This document shows, piece by piece, positions 23,831-44,505 of a stretch of DNA of 64,000 nt; positions within the stretch are counted from its first letter, which is position 1, and the number at the start of each line of letters is the position of its first letter. Both the position numbers and the translations under genes were made by a program. Location of the stretch: NCBI GenBank assembly GCA_016928525.1, contig JAFGKO010000188.1, forward strand, positions 1 through 64,000, written 5' to 3'. The notes beneath the pieces were generated by a model. It was not told where the DNA came from and ran no database searches. It saw only the letters and a list, made by a program, of their open reading frames with translations. Source of the DNA: Anaerolineales bacterium (lineage in GTDB: Bacteria; Chloroflexota; Anaerolineae; Anaerolineales; Villigracilaceae).

Positions 23831-24433
23831 ATGACCAGTATCTCTTTTGCCCAAGATGCGTCTCAAATGATGACAGACAATACCTCCGCAGAGAAAGGAC
23901 TGCTCAGTGCCGCGCAGCGATTCGACTCAAAAGCCCTGGCGCAGATCTACGATTTGTACAGTCCAGAACTTTACCGCTACGCTGCCCGCTTTCTCGGCGA
24001 CCCTTCCGTGGCCGAAGATTGTGTCGCAGAGACGTTCAGCCGCCTGCTAAAAGCCATTCGTGCAAAGCGCGGGCCAAAGGATTATCTGAAAGCATATCTA
24101 TATCGTATCGCCCACAACTGGATTGCAGATTATTACCGGCGCGCGCCTGATGTAGTTGAGTTGAAAGAAACTCATCCGGCTTTGGACAACAATGCGCCCG
24201 AACAAGAAGCCAGCCTGCGAATACGTCAAGCACAGGTACGCAAGGCAATAAAAAAGCTAACACCAGACCAACAACAAGTGATCGCGCTCAAGTACCTCGA
24301 AGGCTGGAAGAACGAAGAAATTGCTCAAGCGATTAAAAAACCTGTTGGGGCAGTGAAGTCACTGCAACACCGCGCCCTGGCTCAATTGAAAAAATACCTA
24401 GAGAGAAATGACCATGACCAAGCAAAATCCTGA
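23831..24433 (+). CDS. ECF-type RNA polymerase sigma factor
   Basis: A 200-residue sigma factor. Region 2 spans about residues 30-105 (LYSPELYRYAARFLGDPSVAEDCVAETF, split, then YLYRIAHNWIADYYR), and region 4 about 135-190 (LTPDQQQVIALKYLEGWKNEEIAQAI, then GAVKSLQHRALAQLKKYL). No region 3, as expected for ECF sigma factors. The first 25 residues are extra, and an in-frame ATG at 23870 is an alternative start; neither has a clear Shine-Dalgarno sequence. The downstream gene, which overlaps by 26 bases, encodes a membrane protein that probably restrains this sigma factor. Confidence 0.9.
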   Translation: MTSISFAQDASQMMTDNTSAEKGLLSAAQRFDSKALAQIYDLYSPELYRYAARFLGDPSVAEDCVAETFSRLLKAIRAKRGPKDYLKAYLYRIAHNWIADYYRRAPDVVELKETHPALDNNAPEQEASLRIRQAQVRKAIKKLTPDQQQVIALKYLEGWKNEEIAQAIKKPVGAVKSLQHRALAQLKKYLERNDHDQAKS

Positions 24434-25463
24434 CATGAACATAGAAGACAGGCTGGAAGAACTAAAAGCAGTCCCACCGCGTAACCCGAGGCAGGCAGCC
24501 CGCGGACGGGCAAACTTCCTGAGCGAAGGGGCAAATTATCGACAGGCCGTATCTCCTGACACAAAAGTGCGTCAAAGTGGGTGGATATTCCTCACAAACC
24601 GAAAGGAGAAATTCGCTATGAACGCACTGGTATCACTCATTCTGGCTACTGCCTTGATCCTGGGAGGTGGAGCCACTGCGGTCGCTGCACAGGACGACCT
24701 CCCCAACCAACCGCTCTACCCGGTCAAAATGTGGACAGAGAATGCCACGTTGGCACTGACGGGCGACCCGCAACTGCAAGCCAATCTGTTGATGCAGATG
24801 TCACAGACACGCGTGGAAGAGATGGCTGGTCTTGTTGATAATGGTATTCCCGTGCCCGATCAGGTACAAGAACGTTTGCAAGATCAGCTCCAGCAGACCC
24901 TGATGCTTGCTGCCAATATGGACGATGCAACCCTCACCCAAACGCTTCTGCAACTTCGCGACCAACTACGAACGCAAGATCGCGTCATGGAGCAATTGCA
25001 GACACATGTAACCACAGATACAGAACCTTTGCTCACGCAAACTCGTCTGATGTTGCAAACCTGCCTGCAACTGGTGGATGAAGGTCTGGCTGATCCACAA
25101 GGCTTCCGTTATGCGATGACAAATCAGATGCAATACGGTCAGAATGAGGAAGCTACCCCTGAACCCAACCAGCAAGGTGAACCCGGCTTCCATCAGAACG
25201 ATCAGGGTGGGCAACAGCCAGTTGATCCCAGTGGAATTGGTGCAGGCAACGGTGCTTCTGGTGGCCAAAATCCCGACAATTCCCAAAACGGCAACGGCTC
25301 AGGCAATGAAATGCAAGGCGGCCAAAACTCGTATAATGGAGGTTGCTCTGGATCCAACTGCGGTGGCGGAACCGATGGTGGTGGAGGCTGCTCTGGGTCT
25401 GGCTGCAACGATGGAAATAATGGTGGAAACGACGGTGGGCATGATGGTGGAGGCAACAAATAG
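24408..25463 (+). CDS. DUF5667-like membrane protein with Gly/Cys-rich tail, probable partner of the ECF sigma factor
   Basis: A 351-residue protein. The N-terminal cytoplasmic part (1-70) contains a PPRNPRQAARGRANFL helix of the kind seen next to ECF sigma factors. A membrane segment follows (about 73-92, LVSLILATALILGGGATAVA), then a helical extracytoplasmic domain resembling DUF5667 (LPNQPLYPVKMWTENATLAL, 98-117, to about 230). The last 120 residues are low-complexity Gly/Asn/Gln/Asp, with CSGSNC and CSGSGC motifs in glycine-rich context. It overlaps the sigma gene by 26 bases, which implies coupled translation and an anti-sigma or signal-input role (inference). Confidence 0.75.
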   Translation: MTMTKQNPDMNIEDRLEELKAVPPRNPRQAARGRANFLSEGANYRQAVSPDTKVRQSGWIFLTNRKEKFAMNALVSLILATALILGGGATAVAAQDDLPNQPLYPVKMWTENATLALTGDPQLQANLLMQMSQTRVEEMAGLVDNGIPVPDQVQERLQDQLQQTLMLAANMDDATLTQTLLQLRDQLRTQDRVMEQLQTHVTTDTEPLLTQTRLMLQTCLQLVDEGLADPQGFRYAMTNQMQYGQNEEATPEPNQQGEPGFHQNDQGGQQPVDPSGIGAGNGASGGQNPDNSQNGNGSGNEMQGGQNSYNGGCSGSNCGGGTDGGGGCSGSGCNDGNNGGNDGGHDGGGNK

Positions 25464-29127: not shown

Positions 29128-29232
29128 TGTCCGGGCAGGCCCGGCGCGGCGGAACCTTTCGAACCCCGCCAGGACCGAGAGGTAGCAACGGTAAGGAAGC
29201 GTATCCGGGTGCCGCCGGTCGCCTGCCTGGAT
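29128..29232 (+). ncRNA. ffs: Small bacterial signal recognition particle RNA (4.5S type)
   Basis: The region folds as one long hairpin of the bacterial small SRP RNA. The basal stem pairs CCGGGCAGGC (29131-29140) with GCCTGCCTGG (29221-29230), with one G-T pair, and CCGGC pairs with GCCGG inside it. The conserved apical Ffh-binding domain follows: GAACCCCGCCAGGACC, a GAGA tetraloop (GNRA class), GGTAGCAACGG, then AAGGAAGC and GGGTGCCGCC. These match the known symmetric and asymmetric internal loops (CAGG and AGCA). The RNA binds Ffh and targets membrane proteins to the translocon. It has its own promoter and is followed by a terminator. Confidence 0.92.
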
Positions 29233-29296: not shown

Positions 29297-32200
29297 TTAC
29301 TCAGCTTCCACGTTTACGAGCACGGCTCGCACTGCCACACGGTAGGTATAGTCATCCTTCTCCTCGTTATACTCACGACAGGTAATGAGTGTGATCCAGT
29401 CATATTCTTCATGGCGTAACACGCTGACATCCTCCGGCCAGAGCAGGCGCACTTCGCGCACTTCGTAGGTATACTTGTTCCCGTTGGCGTGGATATAGAT
29501 CTTATCACCCCAGTAGAGCGAGCCCAGGTTGACGAAGGGACCGGGCGAACCATCCGCTAAGTAAGTATGGGCGGTGATACCGGTATTGCCCGCTAAAGTG
29601 GGGTACGCGGTTCCTTCCAACCATCCGGCCTGGTTCGAGAGCCAGGTTAAGTCCCAGCCCTGATTTGTGGCCGGAATACCCAAGATGGGCAGGTTCACGC
29701 CCAGGCGTGGGATCTCCAAAGTCAATGTGTCCAGTTGTCGGTATTCATTTTCTTTCGGCTGCGCTGGTAAAGCTGTTCTCCTTCCAGGAGCAAAGCCGGT
29801 CTTAGGCAAGGGCGGTTTGTTAATCGTGACACTGGACGAGGTGCCATAGCTATTCACGCCGGCAGGATTAAGCGGGTCGTAGAAGCGTTCGGTAGAATTG
29901 GCATTGTAATTCGATTGCACACCCGGATCGAGTGGGATGCTGGTCCAGGCCACGCTGGCCTCGTTGACAACCGGTGGAGGCCCGACAAAGGTGGCTTCAA
30001 AGGTGATGCTGGAGGTTGCCAGCAAGGGGAAGACATCCCACTCGAATGTAACCGTAGAAGTTCCGGCATCGTAGTTGAAGCGGTCGTATGCCAAACCTGT
30101 TACTGTTACATTGCCAACGTACTCCAGGCCGGAGGGCAGTTGATCGGTCACGACCACATCATATGCATCCGCAGTGCTGATGTCTGTATGCTCGATATCA
30201 ATCGTAAAGGTTATGGTGCTGCCCAGCAAAGCCACGCTCGGCGAGGCATCCTTGTTAATGGAGAGATCTGGCTCAACGATCTCAACTGGGGGCGCAGAGG
30301 CTTCACGAGTACCACCATTCCAAGTCCAGGTGACGTTGTTGTTGATACCAGTCACGCCATCCACATTGGCAGCGATGTCGAGTATGTCCACCGTATATTG
30401 GACGATGATGATCTGGTCGACTGCGCTGGCGTTGGTCACATCACCGAAGTCAAAGACCACGTTATGACCAGAGTTGGTCACGTTCGGGTCACCCGCGTCT
30501 GTGGGGCAGGCGTCAGCAAAGCCGCCCGCCAGGGTGGTGGTAACAACCATCGGATCCGATACCGAGACACCCAGGCATTCATCAAAGGCCAGACCTTCAT
30601 CCAGGATATCTAGCGCCTGCAAGTCAATCAGCGTCCCGTTCGGGATGGTCAGGCTGATCTGGTAGGTTACGACCTCCCCAATCAGTACCTGCGGGTTGGT
30701 ATCGTTGTTGATATTGGTCGTGACAATGGTCTTTTCATTCAAAACCGCGATCGTATCGATGTCCGTGTCGGATGAAGCCGCACCGGTATCAATGTCCGTG
30801 GCTTCCACCAGGTTCGTAATGGTCGGGTTGACAGGCGTGTCGTTCACGCGCACTTGCACATCAATGGAGTAGCTGTTACCCGCAGTAATACTGATCCCGT
30901 TCCAGACAAGCACACCAACTGAAACCGAGTCGGGCGGAAGCGAAGCAGACTGGTAGGTGACATCATCCGGCAACGTGTCGGTTACGGTGATATTGGCCAG
31001 GTCCACGTTACCGGTATTCTCGATTAAAATATTGTAGGTGAGCACATAGCCGGGTGCAGCGATCTCTATACTATCATCCTTGGTGACGGTGAGCACAGCG
31101 AATGCATCTGTATCGGCGCTGGAAGTGTTCGTCGTATCGATTTCTGTGTAGTCGGCCGGAACCGTGACAGTAGCTGTATTGACCAGGTCACCGGTTGCGG
31201 CCACATCGACATTAGCTGTCACCGTGTAAGTAATGGAGGAATTGATAGGCAAATCTACCGTGTCGGCAAAGTCCGAGACGGCATCGACGATCCCATCACA
31301 ACCTGAAGCGCCGCCCGTTGCATCAGTGCAGGCCCAAGTCCAGGTAGCAATCTGCGTAGGGCGCAGATCGTTGACCTGAGCGCCGGTCACGTCCGAAGGA
31401 CCGGCGTTGCGGACCACGACCGTGTAGGTCAGAACACCGCCCTGGAGATAGAAGTCCTGTCCATCATTCTTGGTAATGGAAGTATCAGCCTGGCGGAAGA
31501 GGTAGACGCCAAAGTCCACGCGTGGCTCGGTGGTGGTACCAGTATTGTTATCGTAACTCAACTCACCAACAGGTGTAAGGCTGAAAACTTCAGTCTGGAC
31601 ATACCCACCCAGCCCGAGCGCGCCGGCGGCGGTTGAACCATTATCATCGGAATCTGTGGTATCTAGGTCGGCACTGGGAGCTGGTTCATAGTAGCTGGCT
31701 GGCAACAGCCCGGTACTGGATTCATAATCTCGCAGGGTTTCAGCGCCTTCAAATTCGTAAGCCGGGATGCGCAGGATGTAATCACCTGCGGGCAGGCCTG
31801 TAAAGGCATAGAATCCGCCGCCGCCGGTGGTCGTTTCGGCTGCCACGTCGTCGGCAGTGCCGGGAATACCATCTGGCCCGACCAGCATGATCCGGGTCCC
31901 GTTCGCGGCGTAGAGTTCGACGGTAACGTTATCAATGCCAGATTCGTCAGCGTCCAGGAAACCATTATTTTTGTTGGCTCCCGCTCCCGCATCGTTCCAG
32001 ACCTGGTTGCCGAGGGTGATGGTGTAGAAGCCAAAATCCACAGTCATATTGGCCTGGGCATCGGGCTGGTTGCCCTGGTGGAGCGCACCGGGGGCCAGGA
32101 CGTCCACGTCCACTGCCGATTCTCCAGTTGGCTCGACGCTTCCGGGGCCGAGGACGACGGTCTGTGATGCGACTGCGCCGCTAACCTGGCGGGTGCCATT

Positions 32201-35200
32201 GTCATCCGAATCCTGGTTCGTTTCGGGCGAATCAGCCAGGGTTTCGTCCAGGGAGCCGTCGCTTTGGCGCGTGGTCTGTGATGACCAGTAACCGTACAAC
32301 GGTCCACTGCTGGCAAAGCTGGAGGCCGGGATGATGACCCGGTAACTACCCGATTCCAGGTTATCGAAGAGATAATAGCCGCCATTGGCTGTAGTTGCAG
32401 TCCTGCCGGTATCGACAAACGTGCCGGATCCATCATCCACGTATAACTGGAGCAGGACGCCATCAACGCCCACTTTGTCGCCCGACAAATTTACACCTTC
32501 GCCATTGTCAATCACGCGGCTGTTGTTTGCATCGAACCAGACGCGGTTGCCGAGCGCGTATACGGTGGTGAACCCAAAGTCGATAGTGGGATTACGGGTC
32601 ACACCATATTCGACTTGCGAGCCAGTACCGTCATCCACGATATTGTTGGGCTTTGTAGCATCATAGCCCGGAGTCATGTTCAATACGCCAGCTGTAACGA
32701 GACCGCCGTTGGTGCCCTGGCCATTATCGTTATCGTCGGTGTTGACGTCCGGGCCGGTGGTGGTGTTATCGTTCAGGTCGGCATCATCGCGGGTGCTGAC
32801 CGTGCCAGCAGGCGCATCCACTTTGACAATGTAGCTGCCCGCAGGCAGGCCAGAGAACAGGTACTCGCCGCCAGTTGTGGTAGTCGATGCTAAGACGGTT
32901 GTGTTATTCTCAGCATATAAGTACACTGTGGTGGCATCTAACAAGGTATCAGTCCCGCTATCATAAGCGCCGTTCTTGTTCACATCGCCGAAAACCAGGT
33001 TGCCGATCTCGGTCTTGTAGAAGCCGAAGTCCACGGTCAGGTTGGAACGACCATCCGGCTGGGAACCGTGATTCACACCGGCTTCCAGATCATCATCATC
33101 GGTCGGTTCTGTTGCTCCCACGGGGCCAAGAGTGACAGGTAAGGATACGACCGAGCCGGACTGGAAGGTGCCGTTGTCGTCCGAATCCTGGTTGTTTTCC
33201 GGCGAGGGCGCGGCGGTTTCGCCGGTGGTCCCGTCCGCGTTCATGTACGTATCTGTAGACCAGTAACCTTCCAGCACTGCGCCGGCCCCAAAATTCGAGG
33301 CCGCAACGGAGACCACGTAATTGCCAGGATACAGGTTTTCGAACAGGTAGTAACCACCCGCACCAGTCGTATCCGATGAAACATAATCATAGGCATTTGT
33401 GGCCATATTGAACTTGTGCAGGTCAAGGACCACGCCAACTGCGCCGACTTCGCTGACATCGATGTCAGAACCGTTGTCAGTATCAAACCAGACGCGGTTG
33501 CCGAGGTTGTACAGGTGGACAAAGCCAAAGTCGAGGGTCGGGTTATAGGTCTCGCCAGTTGCATATGTAACCGTATTGCTGGTACCCATCCAGCCAGGTC
33601 GCAGCGGCATGGTATTGGAAGAGGCTACATAAGGCGCAGCGCCGCCGCCTGTGCCAACGCCGTTATCATTGTCATCCTGATTGGCACCTGGGGTGGTTGT
33701 GTCGGTGATGTTGGATATATCCACCGTGCTGGCGGAGTTCGCCGGGCCCTCGACCGTGACAATGTAATCCCCTTGCGGCAGATTGGAGAACAGATACTGC
33801 CCACTGACCGCCGCGCTGGTGGTGTTGGCAATTTCAGTAGTGGTGGTACCGTCAGTCACGTACAAACGAAGGGTGACACCACCAAGCGGCTGATCTGCGT
33901 CAGCGTCATAGGTCCCATTGAAGTTATTGTCGTAATAGACCTGGTCCCCGATGGAGGCGCGGTAAAAGCCAAAGTCCACAGAGAGATTCGAACGCGCATC
34001 CGGTTGTTCACTGTCCTCGCTGGTTCCGTTGCGGAAGTCATCGTCATCGGTCGGTTCAGTAGCACCTGTTGGGCCAAGTGTGACGGGCTGCGAAATTACC
34101 GCGCCGGTAAAAGTCACGCCAGTTTGTAGAGTACCGTTATCATCTGAGTCATCTGCATCAGTTTCAGGAGAGGGCGCAGGGATTTCGGTTGGCGCGCCGG
34201 TATTCGCATCCATGGTTGTGCCGGAAGAGTAATAATCAACCAGCACGCCTGCTCCAGTGAAGTTGGAGGCCAGGAGTACAACGATATAGTCGCCCGCTTC
34301 CAGGTAATCGAACAGGTAATAGCCACCGCCAGAAGTAACATCGGTCAGGCCAGTATCCACGTAATTGCCGGTACCATCGTCTTTGTACAGATCGACAGTC
34401 ACGCCTTCCACGCCGACTTCGCCAGTATCGATCTGGCTGTTGTTATTCGTGTCGAACCAGACGCGGTTGCCAAGCGCATAATAATCCAAACTGCCGGTAT
34501 GCGAGGCCGTATCACTGTAATCATCCACACCGCCGCCACCGGTACGTTCTCCTGTTACCGCGCCATCGAGGGAAGTCCAGGTCATGACGACATTGTTCGT
34601 AGCGATATCTGTGCCGGCCAGGGTGGTCGCAGCTGGGGGACCATCCACGGTAACGGTGAAGATAATGCTGGGAGCCGCATCAGATAGGGCAAAGGAACAG
34701 CCGTTCGAAGAGAGGCAGCTAAAGGTCAGAACTGGTGCGCTGTAGTTCTGTGTCCATCCCGCCGGGAGCGAGGTCACGCTATCGAAGGTCAATCCAGTTG
34801 GGATGGTGTCCGTCACCACAATGTCATAAGCGACCGCATTGCTGTCGTCCGCCGGATTGGCGCTGCCATTGATGTGAGAAATGTCAAGCGTATATTCGAG
34901 CGTTTGGCCGTAAATCCAGGTATCGTCATCCGCCAATTTAGTAATGCCCAGGAAGGGCTCCACGATGCGGGTTTCTACCTGGTTGGACGGACCTTTAGTG
35001 CTGCCGCCAATCGAGACAGTGTATTGGTTGTTGTCCAGGTCAGTGTTGTTGTTATCAGCACTGTCGTTGACCAGCGCATCGAATTCGATGACCACATATT
35101 CCGCGTCGGTATTATCGCGGTCATTGTTGATGAGATCACCCAAAGAGAATGTAAGGTCTTGTCCTACTTCAGATACACGCATAACAGGAATTGTGAATGT

Positions 35201-38200
35201 CGGTGGAAGGGCATCATTGTCCGCGCCTACCAGATCAGCATCCACAGTCATGGGATCGGTGGCGATGAACGATATGCGGGGGTCACCGGCATAGGTGAAC
35301 CCAACCGGAAGCGTATCAGTAACAGTAAAGGCCAGCGAGGTGCCTTCAGGAATAACGGTTGCCAGGCGATACCTGACGATCTCACCGATGGTCAGCTCGT
35401 TGTCAAGGGTATCGCCGTTGGAACTATCCACCAGCGATTTGACCAGGTCAAGCGCATTGGCAGTCACCTGGGCGCTGGCTATGTCGCTGTAGTCGTTGGG
35501 CGGACTGACACCCAGGCCATCACGCTCGCCTTTCGTTCCGCCTGGAGCGTCAGTCACGCTGGAACCGGTGGGGTTGGATGAAGTCCCGTGATCACCGGGC
35601 AGACTGGTATAAGTCAGGTCGGCGGTATTGTCCAGCAATTGGTCAGCTGTAACTGTACCGTTAATGGTCGCGGTGTATTCAATCGAGACCGCACAGCCAG
35701 CCGGAACAGAATCAAACCGGACATCCAGGTTGTTGCCAGTCGAATTGGAGACATCTGCGCCAGTGGCGCAGGCACTGGTCACGACGATATTCGAGCCGTT
35801 CAAACCCAGGTCCGCGGTCATATCCGGGTGGACGGTATCAACCACGACTACATCGAAAGCCGTGGTGGGGAAGGCGCCGCCCGTATTCGAGAAGGTCAAC
35901 GTATAGATGATGGTATCACCTGCGTCGCCGCCGGTAGGACTAGCCATTTTGACAAGATCCGTGATCGAAGGCTCGGCGACCCGGCTGTACACATAGTTGG
36001 AGTACCCGGTGATCAAAGAGCCGTTGATATAGACCCGGTAGCGGTTGCCATGGGTCTCGCCTGCATCGTTGCTGGTGGCTGGAACGCCGTTGTTGTCCAC
36101 AAGAGCATTGAATTCGACAATCACGTATTCGCTATCTGCGTCATTATCCAAGTTTTGCAAGGTGCCAAGCAAAAAGTTGACATCAGTGCTAGAGTTGTAA
36201 GTATCTCCATCGGATGTGCCGGAGGTACTCACATTTAAATCCGCCAGGGCTGGGCAAGCGACTGGAATGACCGGCGTATCACCTGCCGCAACCGAACCTG
36301 TTAACTGGCAATTTGGATCTCCTACCGCAGGCACTACAAAAGTAGATGGGGCTGGGAAAGAATAGTTGTCGGGTGAAATACCGCTATTAGAAACAAATGC
36401 AGCCCTGGCCGTGCCATCGTCCAGAAAAGTGATGCCATTCGGAACGTAATCCATTAAGCGGAAGTTGGGGCTGGTACCCTCAGGCAAGGTCACTACCAGC
36501 CGGTAACGGATGATTTCCCCGATCGCAACCGAAATAGGTGAGCCTGCACCTGGTTGGAAGGGGGTAACCGGCTCGGAAGTATGCGGCTCAGAAGTCACGC
36601 GCATATATTTCACCGGGGTTGTACTGGTCACTGTAAACGTAGCAACCGCGTTGTCGGCATAATTGTTCAACCCAGCCCCCACCCCATCCGCACCGGTGCG
36701 TTCATCGGAATCCACATTGTAAGACGAGCGGTCAACTACATTTCCATCCAGGCTCGTCCAATACAGGTAGGCGGTATTGGTGAACGCCTGAGTCGGACGG
36801 ACGCAATAGGCGACTGTTCCGCTGACTTTGAGCTCGACGCTGCGCGCCGCATCATACGGGACATCGAAACTGTTCCCAGCTGGGGTCCGCAAAATCCAGC
36901 CTGTGGCGTTATCCCCGCTCAACTCGAAATCGGCTGCGGTCACCAGACCGGCAGAATCTGTCACCGAAGAGATGACCGGGTTATCGATCGCCGAAGCGCC
37001 GCCAGCCACGCACAACGGCAACGGATCATTCAAGGTCACATCGTAGGCATCCGTCTGGCTGGAAGCGTCATGCGCAATCGTCAGTGTAAACTCAACCGGG
37101 TTGCCCGCGTCACCTGTTGTCGGATTTGCTACTTTAGCAATATTGAGGACAGGCTCGATGACGGTCACATTCTCAGCTGAAACTGGTCCCTGTGAACCGA
37201 TAACCGTGTTACCATCCGCGTCTTTCGTGTCCCAGGTCATGCTGACAGAGTTATTACGCGCACTCCCGCTTTGGTTGGCGCTGACATTGAGCACTACTGC
37301 CGTGTATTCGAAGGTCAGGGTTTCAGGGACGCTATTATCGTCGTTGTTGTTTTCGACAGTTCCCAAATCCCAGGTAATCGTTCTCCCACTGTCCGTTATG
37401 GTCGGTGTGGTGCTGCCGCTGATGGTCACCTCAGTCGGGTTTGAATTCGTGAACGAATCTTGACTCACAAAGGCCAGTTCAGCGTCGAGCGTATCCACAA
37501 TCTGTGTGTTGGGACTGAGGCCTTCCGGCACAGTGACGGTAAGGCGATAGGTTACCAATTCACCGATCACCACTTGCGTGCGATTGTTGGTGTTCGTGGT
37601 GCCTGAATTATCGATTTCCGTGCCCACCAGTTCCTTGAGCAGCGCCGGGCTGCCGATTTCGCTGTCGGCGGTATCCGTGATCGGTTCCGGGATATAGGGG
37701 TCGCCGCCCTCGCTGCCGGAGTAGCTGGTCACCTGGCCTTCATTTTGCAGCATAGTGCCGGGAGCAATATCCGGATCGACCATCAGGTCATAGGTCACGA
37801 TGATGACGTTCTTGCCGCTGGTCGCCTCATGCAACTGACACAGGCCCTGTCCATATTCGGGGGGAGCGAAAGCCGGATTGTCTGCCGGGTCTCTCAAGCG
37901 GATACCATTCCCGAAGAAGTCGGTTGCGTCGCCATTTGGCCCCAAAAATTCGAACCCTGAACCTGTGCCGTCATCCAACGCCTTGCCATCACCGCGGTGG
38001 GCTTGTAAGTTAAATCCGCCCAGTCCAATGCCAGGGAAAATGTAACCGTCAGGCAAAATATCTTTTAAGGTGATGTCAAACGCGCCGTTGATACCGCTGC
38101 CGGTGTTCTCGATCACGATGGCGAACTTGACCATGTCACCGCCGTCAATACCGCCGATACCGCTGCCCAACGGGTTAGCATCCAGGTAGTCCGAGTTGAT

Positions 38201-40735
38201 CGGCGTCGTGCCCGAATTCCAGGGAATGCTCGAGCCACCGGGAATTTCAAATATCACAGGCGGTGCCACGGGGGGATTCGGTTCCAGGCCAGTATGATCG
38301 GTCGAAACGACTGTCTTCTCACCCACCAGGATTGGCTCAGTCAGAGTCAGATCGATGAAATTATTGGTGGTCGAGACCGAACCCGGGCTGTTGGCATCCT
38401 GCTGCAAGACACTGTTGCGCATTTTTAAGCCATCACCAAATTTCTCATTGGTGACCCGCACAGTGAACAGCAGGTCGATTGTTTTTGGCAAATTGGCCGG
38501 GTCATCATACGAGCCGAACTCGAATTTGACCGAGTTGTCATTTAGATGATTTGAGATGGTAACGGGGTTCGGGTCGATCCCGCGGGTATCGTCCGGGCCC
38601 AGCATCCAGCTTCCGGGGTCCGGGATGACCGCCGCGCCCACGTACTTGGGCCAGGTCCCCAGAGATGATCCATCCACATTGGGGTCGTCCGCATGGAAAA
38701 TAGGCAGAGGCAGGAAGTCGGTCAGGCTCAGGTTGGCGAAATCACCGGTCAGTAATTGGTAAGTAATGCGATAGGTGATAGCATCCCCGGCAGCTACCTG
38801 TACCGTTGTACAGGGATCGAAAGTAGCCGGGTTGCAAACTGCACCGTTGCGTGCCACGATGGTTTTCTCCAGTGTACCGCGCCCGACACTGATACCTGTG
38901 CTGGCACTCTCGCCAGAAACTGTTGCCGTAATCGTGCATGGCCCGGGGTTACAAGAACCCGAATCCACCTGGTTACCGGATATTGTGGCCGCATCGTTCA
39001 GGGAATCTCCCATTTTGACGCTATCGCCGGGATAGGTATCGGTATAGGTATCCTGGATCATGGCATAGAATGTGACCGTACCGGTCGTGGTAGCATTTGC
39101 GGAACTGCCGCCATCGTCTACCAGATCGCCCAATACGACATCGCTGCCGACCCGTGCTATTAATTCCTGGGCGATATCAAATGTGACAATTGTTTCGCCA
39201 TTGTTATTCGGCAAGGACGAATTTGTGTAATCATGGCTATCACATTCCCCGCCAAAACCCGTGTCCGTATAATTACAGGCCACATTGATGTTACCAGGCG
39301 CAAAGGCATAGGTCTGGGTACCGCCATCGCGTGTGATGCTCAATTCAGGATAGTAGGTCGCATTCTGAAAATAATGTTGCCCATCGGATAAAATATCTTC
39401 CAGACTCAGATTTGCGTATCCAAAATAATCAGAGATGTCAAAGGATAATGTGTAACGAACAATATCCCCAGGTGTAACGCCATTCGAAGCCGGGTCAACG
39501 ACAAGCGAACTGCCTTTCCCCAGCGTAATGGGCCTGTCGCTGTGGCTGGCCACGCCAGGCCCAACTCCGCCACTGACATCCAACGGTGGCGAGCCGTCAG
39601 ATGGGATCCAGGTGATGGCATCCAAAGTGGCTGCATTGGTAGTCGAACCCGGCGCGATCGGCTGGCCGTCGGCGTCAAGCTCAGGAACATAGTAATCAAA
39701 AGAAACAGTAATATCGGTGACAACTGGTCCATCCCAGTGCAGCTGGATCTGCGCCCCATTATATGGACCACCAACAGATGGTTCGCTCACCGTCGTTGCG
39801 GCCGGATTAACAGTCAAGTTGCCTAGATAAACAACACTGTTGGGTAAGTTGTCAGTAATATCGATATTGGAAAAAGACTGCCCTTCCGCAACGTTGACTG
39901 TCAGCGCATAAGTCGCCGGGTTATTGGGGCCAGTCGCCAGTTCCCCTGCATTGGTGGACTTCGAAAAGTCAACTACCGTTGGAATGACATCCGAAAAAGG
40001 CACCCAGGTATCTGGCGTGCCCGCATCTGAAACAATCGTGGTATCGGTTGGAGTCGTACAACACCAATCCACCATCGGTGTACGCCCATAGATGAAGCCC
40101 GCACGCGCGCGGATGGATAAAGTATCCCCCAGGTTGGCATTTTCACTCAAGCGTGCCGGGATCGAAACAGTCAGGGATGGCTGCCCAGGCGTGTAGGACC
40201 CATAGGGCAATTGAAAGGATACCAACTGGTCGCCTGCGACACCGCACACATCCAGAAAGAAACCGACATCATCCAACGCCCAGGGATGTTTCACACAACC
40301 GGTACCAGTTCCATCATCCGGGAAAGTTTGCGTCACGACGGTCAGTGTTTCTGTGCCCAGTGTGGCAGTGTAATTCGCGCCCGAGGCCGGGCTGATGCCA
40401 TCGTAGGTCAGTTCATCAGGATATACACCATCCGAGCCGACGTGAGGAATATACAGGTCGATGAAAGGGCCATATCCGGTTTCATTCCCATTGTTCATGA
40501 AGGTTGCACTGATCGTGAAATCCTCTCCCAACATTACTGATCCGGTGCTCACGGTGACATTCGGCAAGGGCACAAAACGGGGCGCGAGCGGGCTCGCATC
40601 TGTATTCGCATCTGCGCCAACTATGCGCACTGGCACAAACAAACCCAACACAAAAAACAGGATAGAAATACTGATGAGCCGCCACCAAGCAGAAATTATA
40701 AAATGACCTGATGATTTCGATGAATAAGAATACAT
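29297..40735 (-). CDS. Giant secreted repeat protein with internal LPKTG motif and C-terminal sortase domain
   Basis: About 3812 residues, starting at the ATG at 40735 (GGAGGAA before it); an upstream ATG at 40771 is less likely. A signal segment (about 15-40, ISISILFFVLGLFVPV) is followed by a long chain of DUF11/fimbrial-isopeptide-like beta domains, recognisable by repeated phrases such as GEIIRYRLVVTLPEG. Six SdrD-B-like domains lie at about 2080-3080 (LGNRVWFDTNNNSQIDTGEV and variants with Asp/Asn-rich, probably Ca-binding loops). More DUF11 repeats follow. Near the end come LPKTG (3643-3647, in PLPKTGFAPGR) and a sortase domain with His3723, Cys3786 (TLITC) and Arg3799. Composition is Asp/Thr-rich with little Cys. 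No membrane segment lies between motif and sortase. Confidence 0.9.
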   Translation of the reverse strand: MYSYSSKSSGHFIISAWWRLISISILFFVLGLFVPVRIVGADANTDASPLAPRFVPLPNVTVSTGSVMLGEDFTISATFMNNGNETGYGPFIDLYIPHVGSDGVYPDELTYDGISPASGANYTATLGTETLTVVTQTFPDDGTGTGCVKHPWALDDVGFFLDVCGVAGDQLVSFQLPYGSYTPGQPSLTVSIPARLSENANLGDTLSIRARAGFIYGRTPMVDWCCTTPTDTTIVSDAGTPDTWVPFSDVIPTVVDFSKSTNAGELATGPNNPATYALTVNVAEGQSFSNIDITDNLPNSVVYLGNLTVNPAATTVSEPSVGGPYNGAQIQLHWDGPVVTDITVSFDYYVPELDADGQPIAPGSTTNAATLDAITWIPSDGSPPLDVSGGVGPGVASHSDRPITLGKGSSLVVDPASNGVTPGDIVRYTLSFDISDYFGYANLSLEDILSDGQHYFQNATYYPELSITRDGGTQTYAFAPGNINVACNYTDTGFGGECDSHDYTNSSLPNNNGETIVTFDIAQELIARVGSDVVLGDLVDDGGSSANATTTGTVTFYAMIQDTYTDTYPGDSVKMGDSLNDAATISGNQVDSGSCNPGPCTITATVSGESASTGISVGRGTLEKTIVARNGAVCNPATFDPCTTVQVAAGDAITYRITYQLLTGDFANLSLTDFLPLPIFHADDPNVDGSSLGTWPKYVGAAVIPDPGSWMLGPDDTRGIDPNPVTISNHLNDNSVKFEFGSYDDPANLPKTIDLLFTVRVTNEKFGDGLKMRNSVLQQDANSPGSVSTTNNFIDLTLTEPILVGEKTVVSTDHTGLEPNPPVAPPVIFEIPGGSSIPWNSGTTPINSDYLDANPLGSGIGGIDGGDMVKFAIVIENTGSGINGAFDITLKDILPDGYIFPGIGLGGFNLQAHRGDGKALDDGTGSGFEFLGPNGDATDFFGNGIRLRDPADNPAFAPPEYGQGLCQLHEATSGKNVIIVTYDLMVDPDIAPGTMLQNEGQVTSYSGSEGGDPYIPEPITDTADSEIGSPALLKELVGTEIDNSGTTNTNNRTQVVIGELVTYRLTVTVPEGLSPNTQIVDTLDAELAFVSQDSFTNSNPTEVTISGSTTPTITDSGRTITWDLGTVENNNDDNSVPETLTFEYTAVVLNVSANQSGSARNNSVSMTWDTKDADGNTVIGSQGPVSAENVTVIEPVLNIAKVANPTTGDAGNPVEFTLTIAHDASSQTDAYDVTLNDPLPLCVAGGASAIDNPVISSVTDSAGLVTAADFELSGDNATGWILRTPAGNSFDVPYDAARSVELKVSGTVAYCVRPTQAFTNTAYLYWTSLDGNVVDRSSYNVDSDERTGADGVGAGLNNYADNAVATFTVTSTTPVKYMRVTSEPHTSEPVTPFQPGAGSPISVAIGEIIRYRLVVTLPEGTSPNFRLMDYVPNGITFLDDGTARAAFVSNSGISPDNYSFPAPSTFVVPAVGDPNCQLTGSVAAGDTPVIPVACPALADLNVSTSGTSDGDTYNSSTDVNFLLGTLQNLDNDADSEYVIVEFNALVDNNGVPATSNDAGETHGNRYRVYINGSLITGYSNYVYSRVAEPSITDLVKMASPTGGDAGDTIIYTLTFSNTGGAFPTTAFDVVVVDTVHPDMTADLGLNGSNIVVTSACATGADVSNSTGNNLDVRFDSVPAGCAVSIEYTATINGTVTADQLLDNTADLTYTSLPGDHGTSSNPTGSSVTDAPGGTKGERDGLGVSPPNDYSDIASAQVTANALDLVKSLVDSSNGDTLDNELTIGEIVRYRLATVIPEGTSLAFTVTDTLPVGFTYAGDPRISFIATDPMTVDADLVGADNDALPPTFTIPVMRVSEVGQDLTFSLGDLINNDRDNTDAEYVVIEFDALVNDSADNNNTDLDNNQYTVSIGGSTKGPSNQVETRIVEPFLGITKLADDDTWIYGQTLEYTLDISHINGSANPADDSNAVAYDIVVTDTIPTGLTFDSVTSLPAGWTQNYSAPVLTFSCLSSNGCSFALSDAAPSIIFTVTVDGPPAATTLAGTDIATNNVVMTWTSLDGAVTGERTGGGGVDDYSDTASHTGSLDYYALGNRVWFDTNNNSQIDTGEVGVEGVTVDLYKDDGTGNYVDTGLTDVTSGGGYYLFDYLEAGDYIVVLLASNFTGAGVLVDYYSSGTTMDANTGAPTEIPAPSPETDADDSDDNGTLQTGVTFTGAVISQPVTLGPTGATEPTDDDDFRNGTSEDSEQPDARSNLSVDFGFYRASIGDQVYYDNNFNGTYDADADQPLGGVTLRLYVTDGTTTTEIANTTSAAVSGQYLFSNLPQGDYIVTVEGPANSASTVDISNITDTTTPGANQDDNDNGVGTGGGAAPYVASSNTMPLRPGWMGTSNTVTYATGETYNPTLDFGFVHLYNLGNRVWFDTDNGSDIDVSEVGAVGVVLDLHKFNMATNAYDYVSSDTTGAGGYYLFENLYPGNYVVSVAASNFGAGAVLEGYWSTDTYMNADGTTGETAAPSPENNQDSDDNGTFQSGSVVSLPVTLGPVGATEPTDDDDLEAGVNHGSQPDGRSNLTVDFGFYKTEIGNLVFGDVNKNGAYDSGTDTLLDATTVYLYAENNTTVLASTTTTGGEYLFSGLPAGSYIVKVDAPAGTVSTRDDADLNDNTTTGPDVNTDDNDNGQGTNGGLVTAGVLNMTPGYDATKPNNIVDDGTGSQVEYGVTRNPTIDFGFTTVYALGNRVWFDANNSRVIDNGEGVNLSGDKVGVDGVLLQLYVDDGSGTFVDTGRTATTANGGYYLFDNLESGSYRVIIPASSFASSGPLYGYWSSQTTRQSDGSLDETLADSPETNQDSDDNGTRQVSGAVASQTVVLGPGSVEPTGESAVDVDVLAPGALHQGNQPDAQANMTVDFGFYTITLGNQVWNDAGAGANKNNGFLDADESGIDNVTVELYAANGTRIMLVGPDGIPGTADDVAAETTTGGGGFYAFTGLPAGDYILRIPAYEFEGAETLRDYESSTGLLPASYYEPAPSADLDTTDSDDNGSTAAGALGLGGYVQTEVFSLTPVGELSYDNNTGTTTEPRVDFGVYLFRQADTSITKNDGQDFYLQGGVLTYTVVVRNAGPSDVTGAQVNDLRPTQIATWTWACTDATGGASGCDGIVDAVSDFADTVDLPINSSITYTVTANVDVAATGDLVNTATVTVPADYTEIDTTNTSSADTDAFAVLTVTKDDSIEIAAPGYVLTYNILIENTGNVDLANITVTDTLPDDVTYQSASLPPDSVSVGVLVWNGISITAGNSYSIDVQVRVNDTPVNPTITNLVEATDIDTGAASSDTDIDTIAVLNEKTIVTTNINNDTNPQVLIGEVVTYQISLTIPNGTLIDLQALDILDEGLAFDECLGVSVSDPMVVTTTLAGGFADACPTDAGDPNVTNSGHNVVFDFGDVTNASAVDQIIIVQYTVDILDIAANVDGVTGINNNVTWTWNGGTREASAPPVEIVEPDLSINKDASPSVALLGSTITFTIDIEHTDISTADAYDVVVTDQLPSGLEYVGNVTVTGLAYDRFNYDAGTSTVTFEWDVFPLLATSSITFEATFVGPPPVVNEASVAWTSIPLDPGVQSNYNANSTERFYDPLNPAGVNSYGTSSSVTINKPPLPKTGFAPGRRTALPAQPKENEYRQLDTLTLEIPRLGVNLPILGIPATNQGWDLTWLSNQAGWLEGTAYPTLAGNTGITAHTYLADGSPGPFVNLGSLYWGDKIYIHANGNKYTYEVREVRLLWPEDVSVLRHEEYDWITLITCREYNEEKDDYTYRVAVRAVLVNVEAE

Positions 40736-40782
40736 GGTTCCTCCACCAACACTCAAAAAATGAGCAAGCATAACCTTGGTAT

Positions 40783-40811
40783 AAAAAAGGCAAAACCGAC
40801 GGCGGTTTCGC
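40783..40811 (-). terminator. Terminator-like hairpin in the leader of the giant surface-protein gene (possible attenuator)
   Basis: On the minus strand GCGAAACCG, loop CCGT and CGGTTTTGC form a stem followed by TTTTTT, ending about 48 bases before the ATG at 40735. It is enclosed by CCTTGGT and ACCAAGG, which are exact complements, and GAGCAA just before it can pair with TTGCTC after it. A terminator in the sense direction inside a leader suggests attenuation. Confidence 0.55.
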
Positions 40812-41203
40812 TATTTGCTCGCTCGGACTCTTCCTTATAAATAAAAATAAACCAAGGAAAGCGACCAAATATTGGGTCCAGAGTCATCGCATCCGCGTAT
40901 CACTCTTAAGTACCATTTTCCTATGATTGGACTCATCACAAAGTTGCAGGATGGTTGTCAGGCTTACAGTTGTGAAAGGGTACATGTCTACACATTTGTC
41001 TGATGGATCTGTAAAGTGACCCATCAAACATTGGGGCAACCATCCGCTCATAGTCCAAAAGTACTATAAGAATTATTCCATAGAACCCGCAGCTAATAAT
41101 TTGCATTATGGATGAATGAGTTGGTAAAAGTTGGGAAAACAAAGATTTTGCTTTTTGAACCTCTCCCCCGCTATTTCACCACCAATCAGGTGATTCTTAA
41201 TCC
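40812..41203. other. Intergenic region between the two sortase-bearing genes
   Basis: About 390 bases, A/T-richer than the genes, without a supported ORF. It should contain the minus-strand promoter and upper leader of the giant gene. The stretch near 40840-40860 (TTTATTTTTATTTATAAGG on the minus strand) is the most promoter-like part, but no clear -35/-10 pair can be named. Confidence 0.3.
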
Positions 41204-41264
41204 AAAAAATCCCTGACGCCGCTGGTTTTCACTACCCAGCATACATCAGGGGTCTGTTTTTTTT
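41204..41264. terminator. Bidirectional terminator after the 1004-residue sortase-bearing gene
   Basis: CCCTGA (41211-41216) pairs with TCAGGG (41246-41251), with an inner GCTGG/CCAGC stem. An A-run (41204-41209) and an eight-T run (41257-41264) flank it, so it works in both directions. Confidence 0.75.
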
Positions 41265-41329
41265 GCGCCTTATTTCATAACCGCTTGTTTCAAGTCTCCC
41301 CTCTCAAGTTTGTGACTTCGTAATTGATA

Positions 41330-44300
41330 CTAAGGCCAGTTGGTCCACCAGCGCTCAGGCCGGGTCTGGACCAGAACAGCTTTCACTACGAAACGTTTCA
41401 AATAGGTTTCCGCCTGCTCGTCGTAGTCGGCACAGGTTACCAGCGTCAGCCAGGATTTTTCTTCATGTTGCAGGATGGAGGCATCCGTCGCATCCAACTT
41501 CTTGGCCGACTTGACCTCGTAGATATGCAGATTCCCAAAGGCATGCACAAAAACCTTATCGCCGGCCTTCAACTTATGCAGGTTGGCAAATGGTCCCGCC
41601 TGCCCATATTGCAGCGTGACGTGACTGGTCAGCACACTGTTGCCCGAAAATCCCGGGAAAGCGCTGCCTTCCAGCCAACCAGCCTGGTTCAATAACCAGT
41701 TGACATCCCAGCTATTGTTCCGTTTCGGAATCCCCACAACCGGCACTTGAAGCTTGAGCGCTGGGATCTCCAGGGTCACATCATTGCTGGTGTTGTATTT
41801 GGTAACCGGCAGATCGCTCAAATCGGTGATCCGACCCGGCGCAAAGCCGGTGACGGGGATCAGCCCAGCGAGACCAGGCGCAGCGGCGCCGCCACCACCA
41901 CGTCCACCGCCACCGCCGGGATCACCAGGATCACCAGGGTCACCGGGATCGCCAGGAGGAACGATAGCCGGAAGAATGTCAACAACACTATCTTCAATGG
42001 GATCGGGTTGCTCGTCGCTTGATACAGCAACCGTATTGACGACATCAGTTTGGCCAACAGGTACAGGGGAGTTGACAATGACCTGGAAGGTAATCGTCAT
42101 TGTACCGCCGGTGGGCAAATCGAAATCATCGCCAGCAAGCACTAAGTTCGCCGGGATGCCATCTAACAGATCAGCAACTGCTCCTCCAGGAATATTATCC
42201 TTCGTTATCCCACCACTCGTCACCACTGTACTATTGGCGACATAGGTTGTACCTGCAGGAAGTGGATCATTCACAACAATATTGTTTTGCGCGGGTACGC
42301 CGATATTCGTGACATTGATCGTATAAGTGATCGATTCGCCTGGAGCAGTTTCTCCGCCCGCACTCGAAATTTTTTCAATTCCTAAGTCAGACACTTCGAC
42401 AGTGGCTGTATCCGAACTTGTGAATGTTTCGGTACCCCTCGACCCGGTGACGATAGCCTCATTGATACTATACCGCTCCGGGGGCGTTCCTGTAGTAATG
42501 CCACTGAAGACAATAATCAAAGTCTGATTAGGATTCATATCCAGTGGATCTATGGGGAAGTTATCCCAGGTCAAATTCTGTCCACTGATATCCGGGTCAG
42601 CAGTTGCGCCAGTAATTGTGCCTCCACCTGGGAGGGTAATGGTTGTGCTCCCAGGGACATATGCCCAGTTGGCTGGAAGAACATCCTGCACTGTAACATC
42701 AGCGATACCAAAGGCATCACTGTTGATGACCAACGTAAAAACAGATACCTGTCCCGCGCCAGTAGGGATGATCTCTGGATCGGCCGTTTTATCCAACGTT
42801 ATGACAGCGTCGATCCATTCGACATTCAAGGGCAAAATGGTGTAACCTGCGTCGATATACGGATTTCCAGGTGCCGCCGCATTTGCATCCTCGCCCCACA
42901 CAACAGCAATTGGTCCCGTCGCCCAAATATGGATACCGGTATTATCGTTATCAGGATCAAAAATTCTCTGCATCTGGATCCTGTTCAAAGTATAGGTGGC
43001 ATCAACAACACCATCGGTAGGACTGTAATCCACATAGATCGTTGTATTGTCCTCGATTGGCGTCACAAATACCGGTGAACCATTAGCAGAGAGATTGGTG
43101 GTTCCAGGCGCCCAGCTTATGAAATATTCCTGTGTCAGTTGATCCGGAGGGATAAACGTAAAACCATAGTTATAGTCTTCGTTTTCAGTATTCGCGGAAC
43201 CAATCGCCCAAAAACTCGTACCATTGGCAGACTCCAGATATACAGCGGAATTTGTGGGTACAAAACGACCCGTAAGATCCAAATAACTAAGTGTTGAATT
43301 CGCCGGAATATCGAAAGACCCGCTTCCTACATTATCTTCATAATTGATCGTAAGAGGAGCAGCCGTTGGATTGTAGATAAAAACATCGGTGTTACTGCCG
43401 CCGCCAAAACTGGGTACTGGTCCATAATACGAGGAAGACCACAACCCGCTTGGCACGGCTGTATAACTGCGGCTGTCTGAAGATATGCCAGCATTCGGTC
43501 GTCCTACGATAAATTGCGTCTGCACAGGAGCTGTTGCAAGAACGGTCGTTCCCGCGTCGATGTGGAATAATTGGGTTACTTCACCACGATCCAGGTTTAC
43601 ATTAACATCCACTCCTGCCATACCAGGATCATCAATTTGCACATTTGTATTATCCTGGGTAGCCTGAACAATGACAAATACCTGGGTGAAGTCTATGTAG
43701 TTCAAGGGTGCGCCGGAAAGATTTTCACCGACTGGAATGGTGTAATTGACCTGGTATGGTTTTACAGGGTAGACCTCCCATGCATTTGCGAATACGGTTT
43801 GGGTAACTTCCGGCCAAAAGGCTTGCGCCACAGAAACCGCGCCACCAGCAACATATAAGCGGTCACGGCCATCGTAACAAACATTTGTCGTACCATTAGG
43901 ATTCGTACTTGTGCAAGTGTCGGCCGCATTACGCGGTACTATGATATTGCCTGATTCGAATGTAAGTACATCACCCTTATTGGCTACATAGGTTTCATCA
44001 CTCCCCGTGCTGCCCGTGCCATAGCCATTTTCCCAATGATCGTAGTAGACCGTCACACCATCCGATGCAATTGAAACTGTTGAAACGTTATGCATTCTGT
44101 TGCATTCCGCGACAGTGCAGGTGCCGCCTCCTCCCAGCGCAGTTCCAAGATTGGGATCATTATCAATGTCTTGCAAGATTTGGAATAATTGGTCTGTGCC
44201 ACCCGGAATAAAATATTCCGAATAGCCCGCTGGAACGGCAGCTGATGCACTTTGCAGCATGGCAAAAGTGGAAAACAAAAATACAATGAGAAGCACCACT

Positions 44301-44344
44301 ATTCGGCTGACGTGCAAGAAACGAAGTAATTTTTGTTTTTTCAT
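41330..44344 (-). CDS. Secreted protein with IPVTG motif and C-terminal sortase domain
   Basis: A 1004-residue protein. The signal peptide (MKKQKLLRFLHVSRIVVLLI onward) ends near QSASA. Residues 35-480 form a large beta-rich region reminiscent of IgGFc-binding N-terminal domains (VTVYYDHWENGYG, NTDVFIYNPTAAPLTINYED). Two DUF11 repeats (about 485-770) follow, then a GDPGDPGDPGDPGG and GGGRGGGG linker. The end carries LIPVTGFAPGR (IPVTG at 829-833) and a sortase domain: His908 in LTSHVTL, Cys971 in TLVTC and Arg984. Spacing between the three catalytic residues equals that in the giant neighbour. The ATG at 44344 has AAAGGA eleven bases upstream. A strong promoter lies at 44477-44505. Confidence 0.9.
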   Translation of the reverse strand: MKKQKLLRFLHVSRIVVLLIVFLFSTFAMLQSASAAVPAGYSEYFIPGGTDQLFQILQDIDNDPNLGTALGGGGTCTVAECNRMHNVSTVSIASDGVTVYYDHWENGYGTGSTGSDETYVANKGDVLTFESGNIIVPRNAADTCTSTNPNGTTNVCYDGRDRLYVAGGAVSVAQAFWPEVTQTVFANAWEVYPVKPYQVNYTIPVGENLSGAPLNYIDFTQVFVIVQATQDNTNVQIDDPGMAGVDVNVNLDRGEVTQLFHIDAGTTVLATAPVQTQFIVGRPNAGISSDSRSYTAVPSGLWSSSYYGPVPSFGGGSNTDVFIYNPTAAPLTINYEDNVGSGSFDIPANSTLSYLDLTGRFVPTNSAVYLESANGTSFWAIGSANTENEDYNYGFTFIPPDQLTQEYFISWAPGTTNLSANGSPVFVTPIEDNTTIYVDYSPTDGVVDATYTLNRIQMQRIFDPDNDNTGIHIWATGPIAVVWGEDANAAAPGNPYIDAGYTILPLNVEWIDAVITLDKTADPEIIPTGAGQVSVFTLVINSDAFGIADVTVQDVLPANWAYVPGSTTITLPGGGTITGATADPDISGQNLTWDNFPIDPLDMNPNQTLIIVFSGITTGTPPERYSINEAIVTGSRGTETFTSSDTATVEVSDLGIEKISSAGGETAPGESITYTINVTNIGVPAQNNIVVNDPLPAGTTYVANSTVVTSGGITKDNIPGGAVADLLDGIPANLVLAGDDFDLPTGGTMTITFQVIVNSPVPVGQTDVVNTVAVSSDEQPDPIEDSVVDILPAIVPPGDPGDPGDPGDPGGGGGRGGGGAAAPGLAGLIPVTGFAPGRITDLSDLPVTKYNTSNDVTLEIPALKLQVPVVGIPKRNNSWDVNWLLNQAGWLEGSAFPGFSGNSVLTSHVTLQYGQAGPFANLHKLKAGDKVFVHAFGNLHIYEVKSAKKLDATDASILQHEEKSWLTLVTCADYDEQAETYLKRFVVKAVLVQTRPERWWTNWP
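41919..41954. repeat. Four 9-bp tandem repeats coding for Gly-Asp-Pro
   Basis: Four near-identical units (GGATCACCA and variants) encode GDP repeats in the linker before the IPVTG motif. The copy number could change by slippage in steps that keep the frame. Confidence 0.8.
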
Positions 44345-44476
44345 TGAATACCATATCCTTTTACAAATCGGAACAGAACCAATAATCATATTGCGAGTTA
44401 AAATAAATCACGGAAATTGCCTGTCCCTGCCCTCATTCAACAACAAACCTTAGAAAAACCTTTCAATTTTGTAAGG

Positions 44477-44505
44477 ATTCTAGTGTAAGCGGTATATTTT
44501 GTCAA
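44477..44505 (-). promoter_or_regulatory. Promoter of the 1004-residue sortase-bearing gene
   Basis: On the minus strand TTGACA (44505-44500), 17 bases, TAGAAT (44482-44477). The leader to the ATG at 44344 is about 125 bases and has no obvious terminator. Confidence 0.8.

Follow-up and report, generated by a model that had tools for sequence, protein, structure and literature searches.

Why do two neighbouring surface proteins of an Anaerolineales bacterium carry a sorting motif and a sortase in one and the same polypeptide? The question is raised by a stretch of 64,000 nucleotides of its DNA (hereafter the window; GenBank assembly GCA_016928525.1, contig JAFGKO010000188.1, positions 1 to 64,000), in which a first-pass annotation, made from the letters alone, had read both proteins, here called P0001 and P0002, as ending in [LI]PxTGFAPGR, a linker and a sortase domain. 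To our knowledge, known sortase systems separate the enzyme from its substrate, and a membrane helix brings both together. Based on sequence comparison, we consider it probable that the last approximately 175 residues form a portable C-terminal self-sorting cassette, which would act mainly in cis. The observations behind this reading are a sortase domain with His/Cys/Arg and, ahead of it, an LPx[TS]G[F/Y] motif, both located C-terminally on secreted proteins with diverse ectodomains; the absence of a membrane helix after the motif was observed for the two window proteins.

The translations of both proteins had the architecture described, and the sortase domain of each exceeded the cut-off of PF04203 (81 bits in P0001 and 87.9 bits in P0002, cut-off 26.6). 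P0001 begins with a signal-peptide-like N-terminus, followed by a long ectodomain, LPKTGFAPGR and the sortase domain, and carries PPLPKTGFAPGRR, while P0002 carries LIPVTGFAPGRI. The linker between motif and domain has about 20-25 residues in these two proteins. The catalytic residues pointed out by the first-pass annotation were present in both translations, as His923, Cys986 and Arg999 (13 residues after the Cys) in P0002 and as TAHTYL, TLITC and an Arg 13 residues past the Cys in P0001. Its statement that no membrane helix is found at the C-termini agreed with a Kyte-Doolittle hydropathy scan, in which the best 19-residue hydrophobic stretches started at residue 33 (P0001) and residue 27 (P0002) and were signal-peptide-like, and the maxima past residue 100 were 1.48 and 1.31, respectively. 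The sole strongly hydrophobic stretch of each protein is therefore N-terminal, which means that both are without a C-terminal membrane helix. Judged as a classical sorting signal, the segment has the [LI]PxTG pentapeptide, but a PF04203 domain stands where the membrane helix and basic tail would follow.

By family the enzyme is an ordinary sortase, but its scores do not reach the cut-offs of the NCBIfam class models listed for it (C, D, E, F and GN). TIGR01076 gave 52.5 and 58 bits for P0001 and P0002 (cut-off 39.35), and together with PF04203, the catalytic His/Cys/Arg and the beta-barrel fold this places the C-terminal domain in the sortase superfamily, as the first-pass annotation had assumed, with transpeptidase activity as a prediction only. 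The class C model NF033745 (curated cut-off 160 bits) scored 54.9 and 48.2 bits, and among the matches listed the class D, E, F and GN models (cut-offs 140-166 bits) scored 51.1 bits or lower, with the class F and GN scores given for P0002 only. The DPX lid motif of class C was not found in the window proteins, where the segment reads LPKTGF or IPVTGF, and the hydropathy scan of P0001 and P0002 revealed no C-terminal membrane helix of the class C type.

The motif turned out to be conserved together with the enzyme. In an alignment of 242 proteins (P0001-P0242), with rows chosen by similarity to the cassette of P0002, the motif residues were P in 212/215, T in 215/218, G in 218/218 and F in 215/218, the catalytic residues were Cys in 242/242, His in 241/242 and Arg in 239/242, and the linker was variable. 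Because P-x-T-G-F and the catalytic residues are conserved to about the same degree, in contrast to the variable linker, the motif is not a chance string. We then collected 394 unique modules (duplicates by the last 120 residues were dropped), and 362 of them had a frame reaching 62 residues before the reference Trp. P-x-[TS]-G-[FY] stood at the usual place in 314 of these 362, which meant 314 of the 322 fused modules (T in 306 and S in 8; F in 311 and Y in 3), so the conservation ahead of the sortase on which the first-pass proposal depended was borne out in homologues. Across fused modules the motif lies roughly 20-30 residues ahead of the sortase domain. His/Cys/Arg was retained in 310 of the 314 motif modules, and the four incomplete ones were L141 and L193, with frames that end early, P0173 (Arg to Cys) and P0139 (His to Tyr). 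The 48 motif-less modules were 40 frames of stand-alone type with 224-470 amino acids (aa), namely the 24 best-scoring of 24 genomes, 3 others of these genomes and 13 from a scan of 251 genomes, and 8 fused modules with a broken motif, chosen by eye among the 48 rows. A divergent second set had P-x-T-G in 120/120 and F in 119 (best 120 of 576). In P0021, P0030, P0035 and P0040 a second motif, LPxTGY, was seen 16 residues past the first, within the linker.

The relation of motif to enzyme was then followed in 24 genomes picked from the loci, i.e., each holding a relative. The first-pass annotation had proposed to tabulate how often motif and sortase are fused and whether separate sortases and LPxTG substrates exist in the same genomes. 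The PxTGFAP DNA pattern had 65 sites, of which 56 sat 58-70 nt ahead of a PF04203 match in one register, and the other nine, in short frames, antisense-looking frames or an unrelated transporter-like frame, look like chance; a reversed control pattern had 8 matches. Twelve further fused sortases carried variants such as LPDSGFAPN, LPETGFAAG and IPVTGFPPD. A PF04203 protein of stand-alone size was found in 24/24 genomes (best-scoring ones L081-L104; 303-349 aa in 22, 427 and 470 aa in two), with a membrane helix ahead of the domain in 24/24 and P-x-[TS]-G-[FYL] before the catalytic Cys in 0/24. Among six other stand-alone sortases (227-291 aa), L164, L167, L171 and L173 showed no motif-like string. 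A TIGR01167 scan of the 24 genomes was noise overall (matches in 14/14 control genomes), with real tails at 3/20 loci (L112, L114 and L116), so we searched for orthologues of this protein of about 200 aa. A match was found in 23/24 genomes (L194-L216; that of G017 was weak, E value 2.6e-4), and 21/23 ended in LPx[TS]G[FL], a membrane helix and a basic tail (e.g., ARRLR), while the remaining two had LSKTGF and LPQGGF at the motif position. The three read whole (L112, L114 and L116) had an N-terminal membrane helix as well. In several genomes this protein shares a contig with the stand-alone sortase, which would be the enzyme that cuts its tail. Stand-alone sortases with a helix and without the motif, next to classical tails in the orthologues, therefore indicate that the fusions have retained a genuine sorting motif, behind which an enzyme has taken the place of helix and tail.

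In two of the four lineages that lost the motif, the catalytic Arg was lost too. In L003, L005 and L016 the upstream copy, which lies beside an intact one, has FILVSGG[FL]GFAPD in place of the motif and Trp in place of the catalytic Arg, and in P0033 and P0041 one residue is inserted between Thr and Gly and the Arg is replaced by His or Gln. In raw counts, Arg was missing in 5/8 motif-broken modules versus 1 Arg (plus 1 His) change among 312 complete motif modules. The raw 5/8 count overstates independence, so a count on a tree is the fairer figure. A FastTree phylogeny of 320 modules was computed from the core alone, with motif, linker and Arg column left out and rows with more than 30 gaps dropped. 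Parsimony placed 4 changes of the motif and 3 of the Arg on this tree, and two lineages had both (L003/L005/L016, support 0.999; P0033/P0041, support 0.937). If all branches are equally likely, the chance of such overlap is by our estimate of the order of 1 in 10,000. The coupled decay supports, but does not prove, the view that motif and catalysis serve each other on one chain.

Structure prediction was consistent with a motif that lies close to the active site. The AlphaFold2 model of the P0002 cassette had a mean predicted local distance difference test score (pLDDT) of 86.2 and a block pLDDT of 91 over VTGFAPGRIT. A profile search of the PDB returned class C sortases first (8t28, 24rr and 2w1j), and structure alignments of the model with class C-type entries began at residues 8-18 in 17/18 entries listed, while those with class A/E mostly began at 37-43.

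The family is large and is found mostly in one phylum. The P0002 cassette matched 359 proteins, a divergent cassette 576 proteins and an isolated-cassette search 179 shorter proteins (the best 120 of each are listed); the last are probably fragments, because many lie on contigs under 3 kb. Organisms named among the matches listed were Anaerolineales, Anaerolineaceae, Chloroflexi or Chloroflexota, and once only "bacterium" (P0360), and the source names of many listed homologues were only "sortase" or "LPXTG-site transpeptidase (sortase) family protein". A scan of the species-genome collection with a single sequence as the query gave no relative, and with an alignment as the query it gave 186 relatives, of which 80 were kept; by title, 79 were from Chloroflexota groups and 1 was from Acidithiobacillus (L066), which is perhaps a binning error. 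Some match was found in 123 of 251 genomes of the phylum of G006. Starts at profile position 2, which include the motif, were seen in 16 of the 251 among the stronger matches, which were listed, and most other listed matches started later in the profile, in frames of roughly 180-500 aa, some longer. A tblastn search of plasmids gave 9 records, and the sole one at 80% query coverage was the Chloroflexota plasmid CP069395.1 (L247), with a 2570-aa DUF11 protein ending in LPQTGFAPG and a sortase. This plasmid belongs to a cold-seep Chloroflexota strain, and the fused gene adjoins a heliorhodopsin gene.

Many different Pfam accessions precede PF04203 among the matches listed in the P0002 and divergent searches, in precomputed Pfam lists that mix overlapping models; we take these accessions to include DUF11, SdrD_B, beta-helix, Kelch, FG-GAP, LamG, subtilase and glycosidase-type domains. 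Two small proteins, P0173 and P0217, have a lipobox-like N-terminus (by eye) and, ahead of the cassette, stretches that resemble IPVTG. The number of fused copies per genome reached seven (G013), and tandem fused genes were seen in the window, L003, L005, L016, L021 and L046. A cassette attached to such diverse ectodomains would behave as sorting signals do.

We propose that the sortase domain folds after export and that the motif then settles in the active-site groove of its own domain, at about the position of the pilus sortase lid. In P0002, Cys986 would attack the Thr847-Gly848 bond, which would leave the ectodomain as a thioester on its own enzyme. A nucleophile would then take over the ectodomain; our first guess for it is the amine of a cell-wall precursor, but it could also be water or a lysine on a neighbouring surface protein. 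The sortase domain would be shed as a single-use by-product with a new N-terminal Gly-Phe. A classical substrate is kept close to a separate membrane sortase by its helix and basic tail, and the enzyme would thus take the place of these two elements. Of this scheme, we observed the fold, the motif and the residues, and we infer cleavage, acceptor and domain release. On balance we lean slightly towards a natural one-chain sorting system, in which the enzyme is itself the C-terminal sorting signal and turns over only once, as a cis transpeptidase that joins the ectodomain of its own chain to the wall or a neighbour before it is shed, and in which the cassette has spread over diverse secreted Anaerolineae proteins beside a classical two-part sortase system with nearly the same motif.

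Several observations weigh against this scheme. P0173 and P0139 still keep the motif despite the changed Arg or His. Conversely, the Arg is retained in two of the four lineages without the motif (P0034/P0038 and P0054), which means that some modules may not need a cis substrate. A loosely motif-like string is not wholly confined to fusions, since the remaining two of the six other stand-alone sortases, which are of another type, have PPLTGL (L170) and PPASGL (L175) a few residues before the domain, which could be a relic or a convergent lid. Just two of the five P0002 sub-models were good (86.2, 82.0, 67.5, 66.0 and 63.3), and the prediction for the P0001 cassette was poor (mean pLDDT 64.4, with about 55 in the motif blocks), so docking of the motif was not reproduced. 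The alignment starts have exceptions (4d7w from 39; class A 2kw8 from 15 and 4tqx from 31), and the ranges give only the first and last residue, with some rows taking in the low-confidence model residues 1-16. Class C lids, moreover, occupy that place and are not described as being cut.

In the main rival explanation, the motif would be a pseudo-substrate lid, i.e., a tethered plug comparable to the class C DPX lid, which blocks a trans-acting sortase on a stalk until a partner displaces it. The class C hits of the PDB search, the reach of the class C structures into the N-terminal segment and the retained Arg of two motif-loss lineages fit such a lid, and in the available excerpt of PMC3493515 the class C lid overlaps a bound LPAT peptide and removal of the N-terminal region raises activity. 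We nevertheless regard it as unlikely, because the segment is P-x-[TS]-G-[FY] rather than DPX in nearly all fused modules (314 of 322) and is similar to the classical sorting signals that these genomes encode; a lid shares the placement, but by itself predicts no full LPx[TS]G like the genomes' own signals. It also leaves up to seven fused copies on diverse ectodomains in one genome, though each of the 24 genomes has a stand-alone sortase.

The cassette could instead be a polymerase, which is a sub-case of the cis scheme, so that their probabilities overlap: after cis acylation the acceptor would be a lysine of the next ectodomain, so that covalent pilus-like chains would form, with a polymerase supplied by every subunit. 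The nearest solved relatives by profile are pilus sortases, and the P0001 ectodomain, which matches SdrD_B, DUF11 and TIGR01451 repeats, also matches TIGR04226 (isopeptide-forming fimbrial domain; 143.9 bits, 4 stretches). Repeats and isopeptide domains are found in single-chain stalks too, however, and among the divergent-search matches listed the ectodomains are often without pilin-type Pfam domains, which makes this outcome quite improbable in our view. Processing in trans, whereby a second fused copy or the stand-alone membrane sortase cuts the motif and the fused domain works on others, seems to us more doubtful again. The stand-alone sortase of every genome, classical substrates that mostly share LPxTGF, and the tandem copies, for which it is conceivable above all, speak for it; but it predicts motif proteins without an enzyme, and none was credible among the 65 exact PxTGFAP sites of the 24 genomes (motif variants lay outside that search), and without a membrane helix the substrate would not be held near the stand-alone enzyme. 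The first-pass suggestion that the module processes itself or its neighbour, or forms polymers, is partly supported: the cis part is favoured, and neighbour processing and polymers are ranked as rivals. An artefact, such as a chance LPxTG-like string, a misassembly or a frameshift joining two genes, has only the shortness of the motif in its favour and is ruled out by conservation, as the architecture is repeated in hundreds of sequences and in all 24 genomes, which were chosen for holding a relative; we give it next to no weight.

The features of the locus are collected in Table 1.

Table 1 Positions of the fused genes, their cassettes and a promoter-like site in the window
Feature	Position	Strand	Basis
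Fused surface protein 1, P0001, 3824 aa	29297..40771	-	Translation; PF04203, SdrD_B, DUF11; TIGR04226; TIGR01451 repeats; hydropathy
P0001 C-terminal cassette, Leu3655 of LPKTGF to C-terminus, sortase domain 3685-3819	29300..29809	-	Translation, profiles
Fused surface protein 2, P0002, 1019 aa; start at 44344 equally possible	41330..44389	-	Translation, profiles
P0002 C-terminal cassette, Ile844 of IPVTGFAPGR (844-853), linker, sortase domain 873-1007	41333..41860	-	Translation, profile, alignment, AlphaFold2 model
Promoter-like site upstream of P0002, TTGACA-17-TAGAAT, 11/12	44477..44505	-	Consensus match only

The start of P0002 in the first-pass annotation, 44344, is Met16 of the frame from 44389. 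Promoter-like consensus sites numbered 18 in the region versus a mean of 15.3 in shuffles. A nine-pair stem followed by a T run (40790-40811, minus strand) lies about 20 nt ahead of the first ATG of P0001, within the 558 nt that follow P0002, and each of the two genes may therefore have a transcript of its own. Just downstream of P0001 is a bacterial small signal recognition particle RNA (29133-29231, plus strand; RF00169, 66.2 bits), and at 23831-25463 (plus strand) a gene for a sigma factor of the extracytoplasmic function type overlaps a DUF5667 gene, as a possible sigma/anti-sigma pair.

The cassette looks like an undescribed variant of the sortase system. A natural motif-sortase fusion was not described in the portions seen of the full-text literature searched, which is without most subscription journals and any bioRxiv preprints. 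According to the accessible text of PMC12617251, a recent survey sought sorting motifs in the last 50 residues only, and because of this limit it would miss fused motifs. If the cis scheme is true, it would be a different answer to the anchoring of giant surface proteins, in a phylum with a little-studied surface, and would provide a natural self-cleaving, self-ligating tag, and the joint losses of motif and Arg would be natural experiments that make the cis question directly testable.

Compared with known systems, the cassette resembles the class C pilus sortases, which are the best profile matches among solved chains, in His/Cys/Arg and in a pre-core segment at or near the groove, but these have a DPX lid and a C-terminal membrane helix (PMC3493515) and are separate enzymes. 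The stand-alone sortases L081-L104 also exceed the cut-off of PF04203, but have a helix before the domain, no motif and no large ectodomain. Engineered self-cleaving sortase-LPETG fusions are credited in PMC2901362 to Mao (2004). Such sortase-LPETG-target fusions likewise have enzyme and motif on one chain and, in the available part of PMC2901362, are reported to cut themselves, but there the enzyme stands before motif and target, whereas the cassette is natural and has its enzyme after the motif. With the classical LPxTG signal of the PF00746/TIGR01167 type it shares an LPxTG(F) near the C-terminus of diverse secreted proteins, but where the classical signal has a helix and a basic tail, the cassette has a sortase domain.

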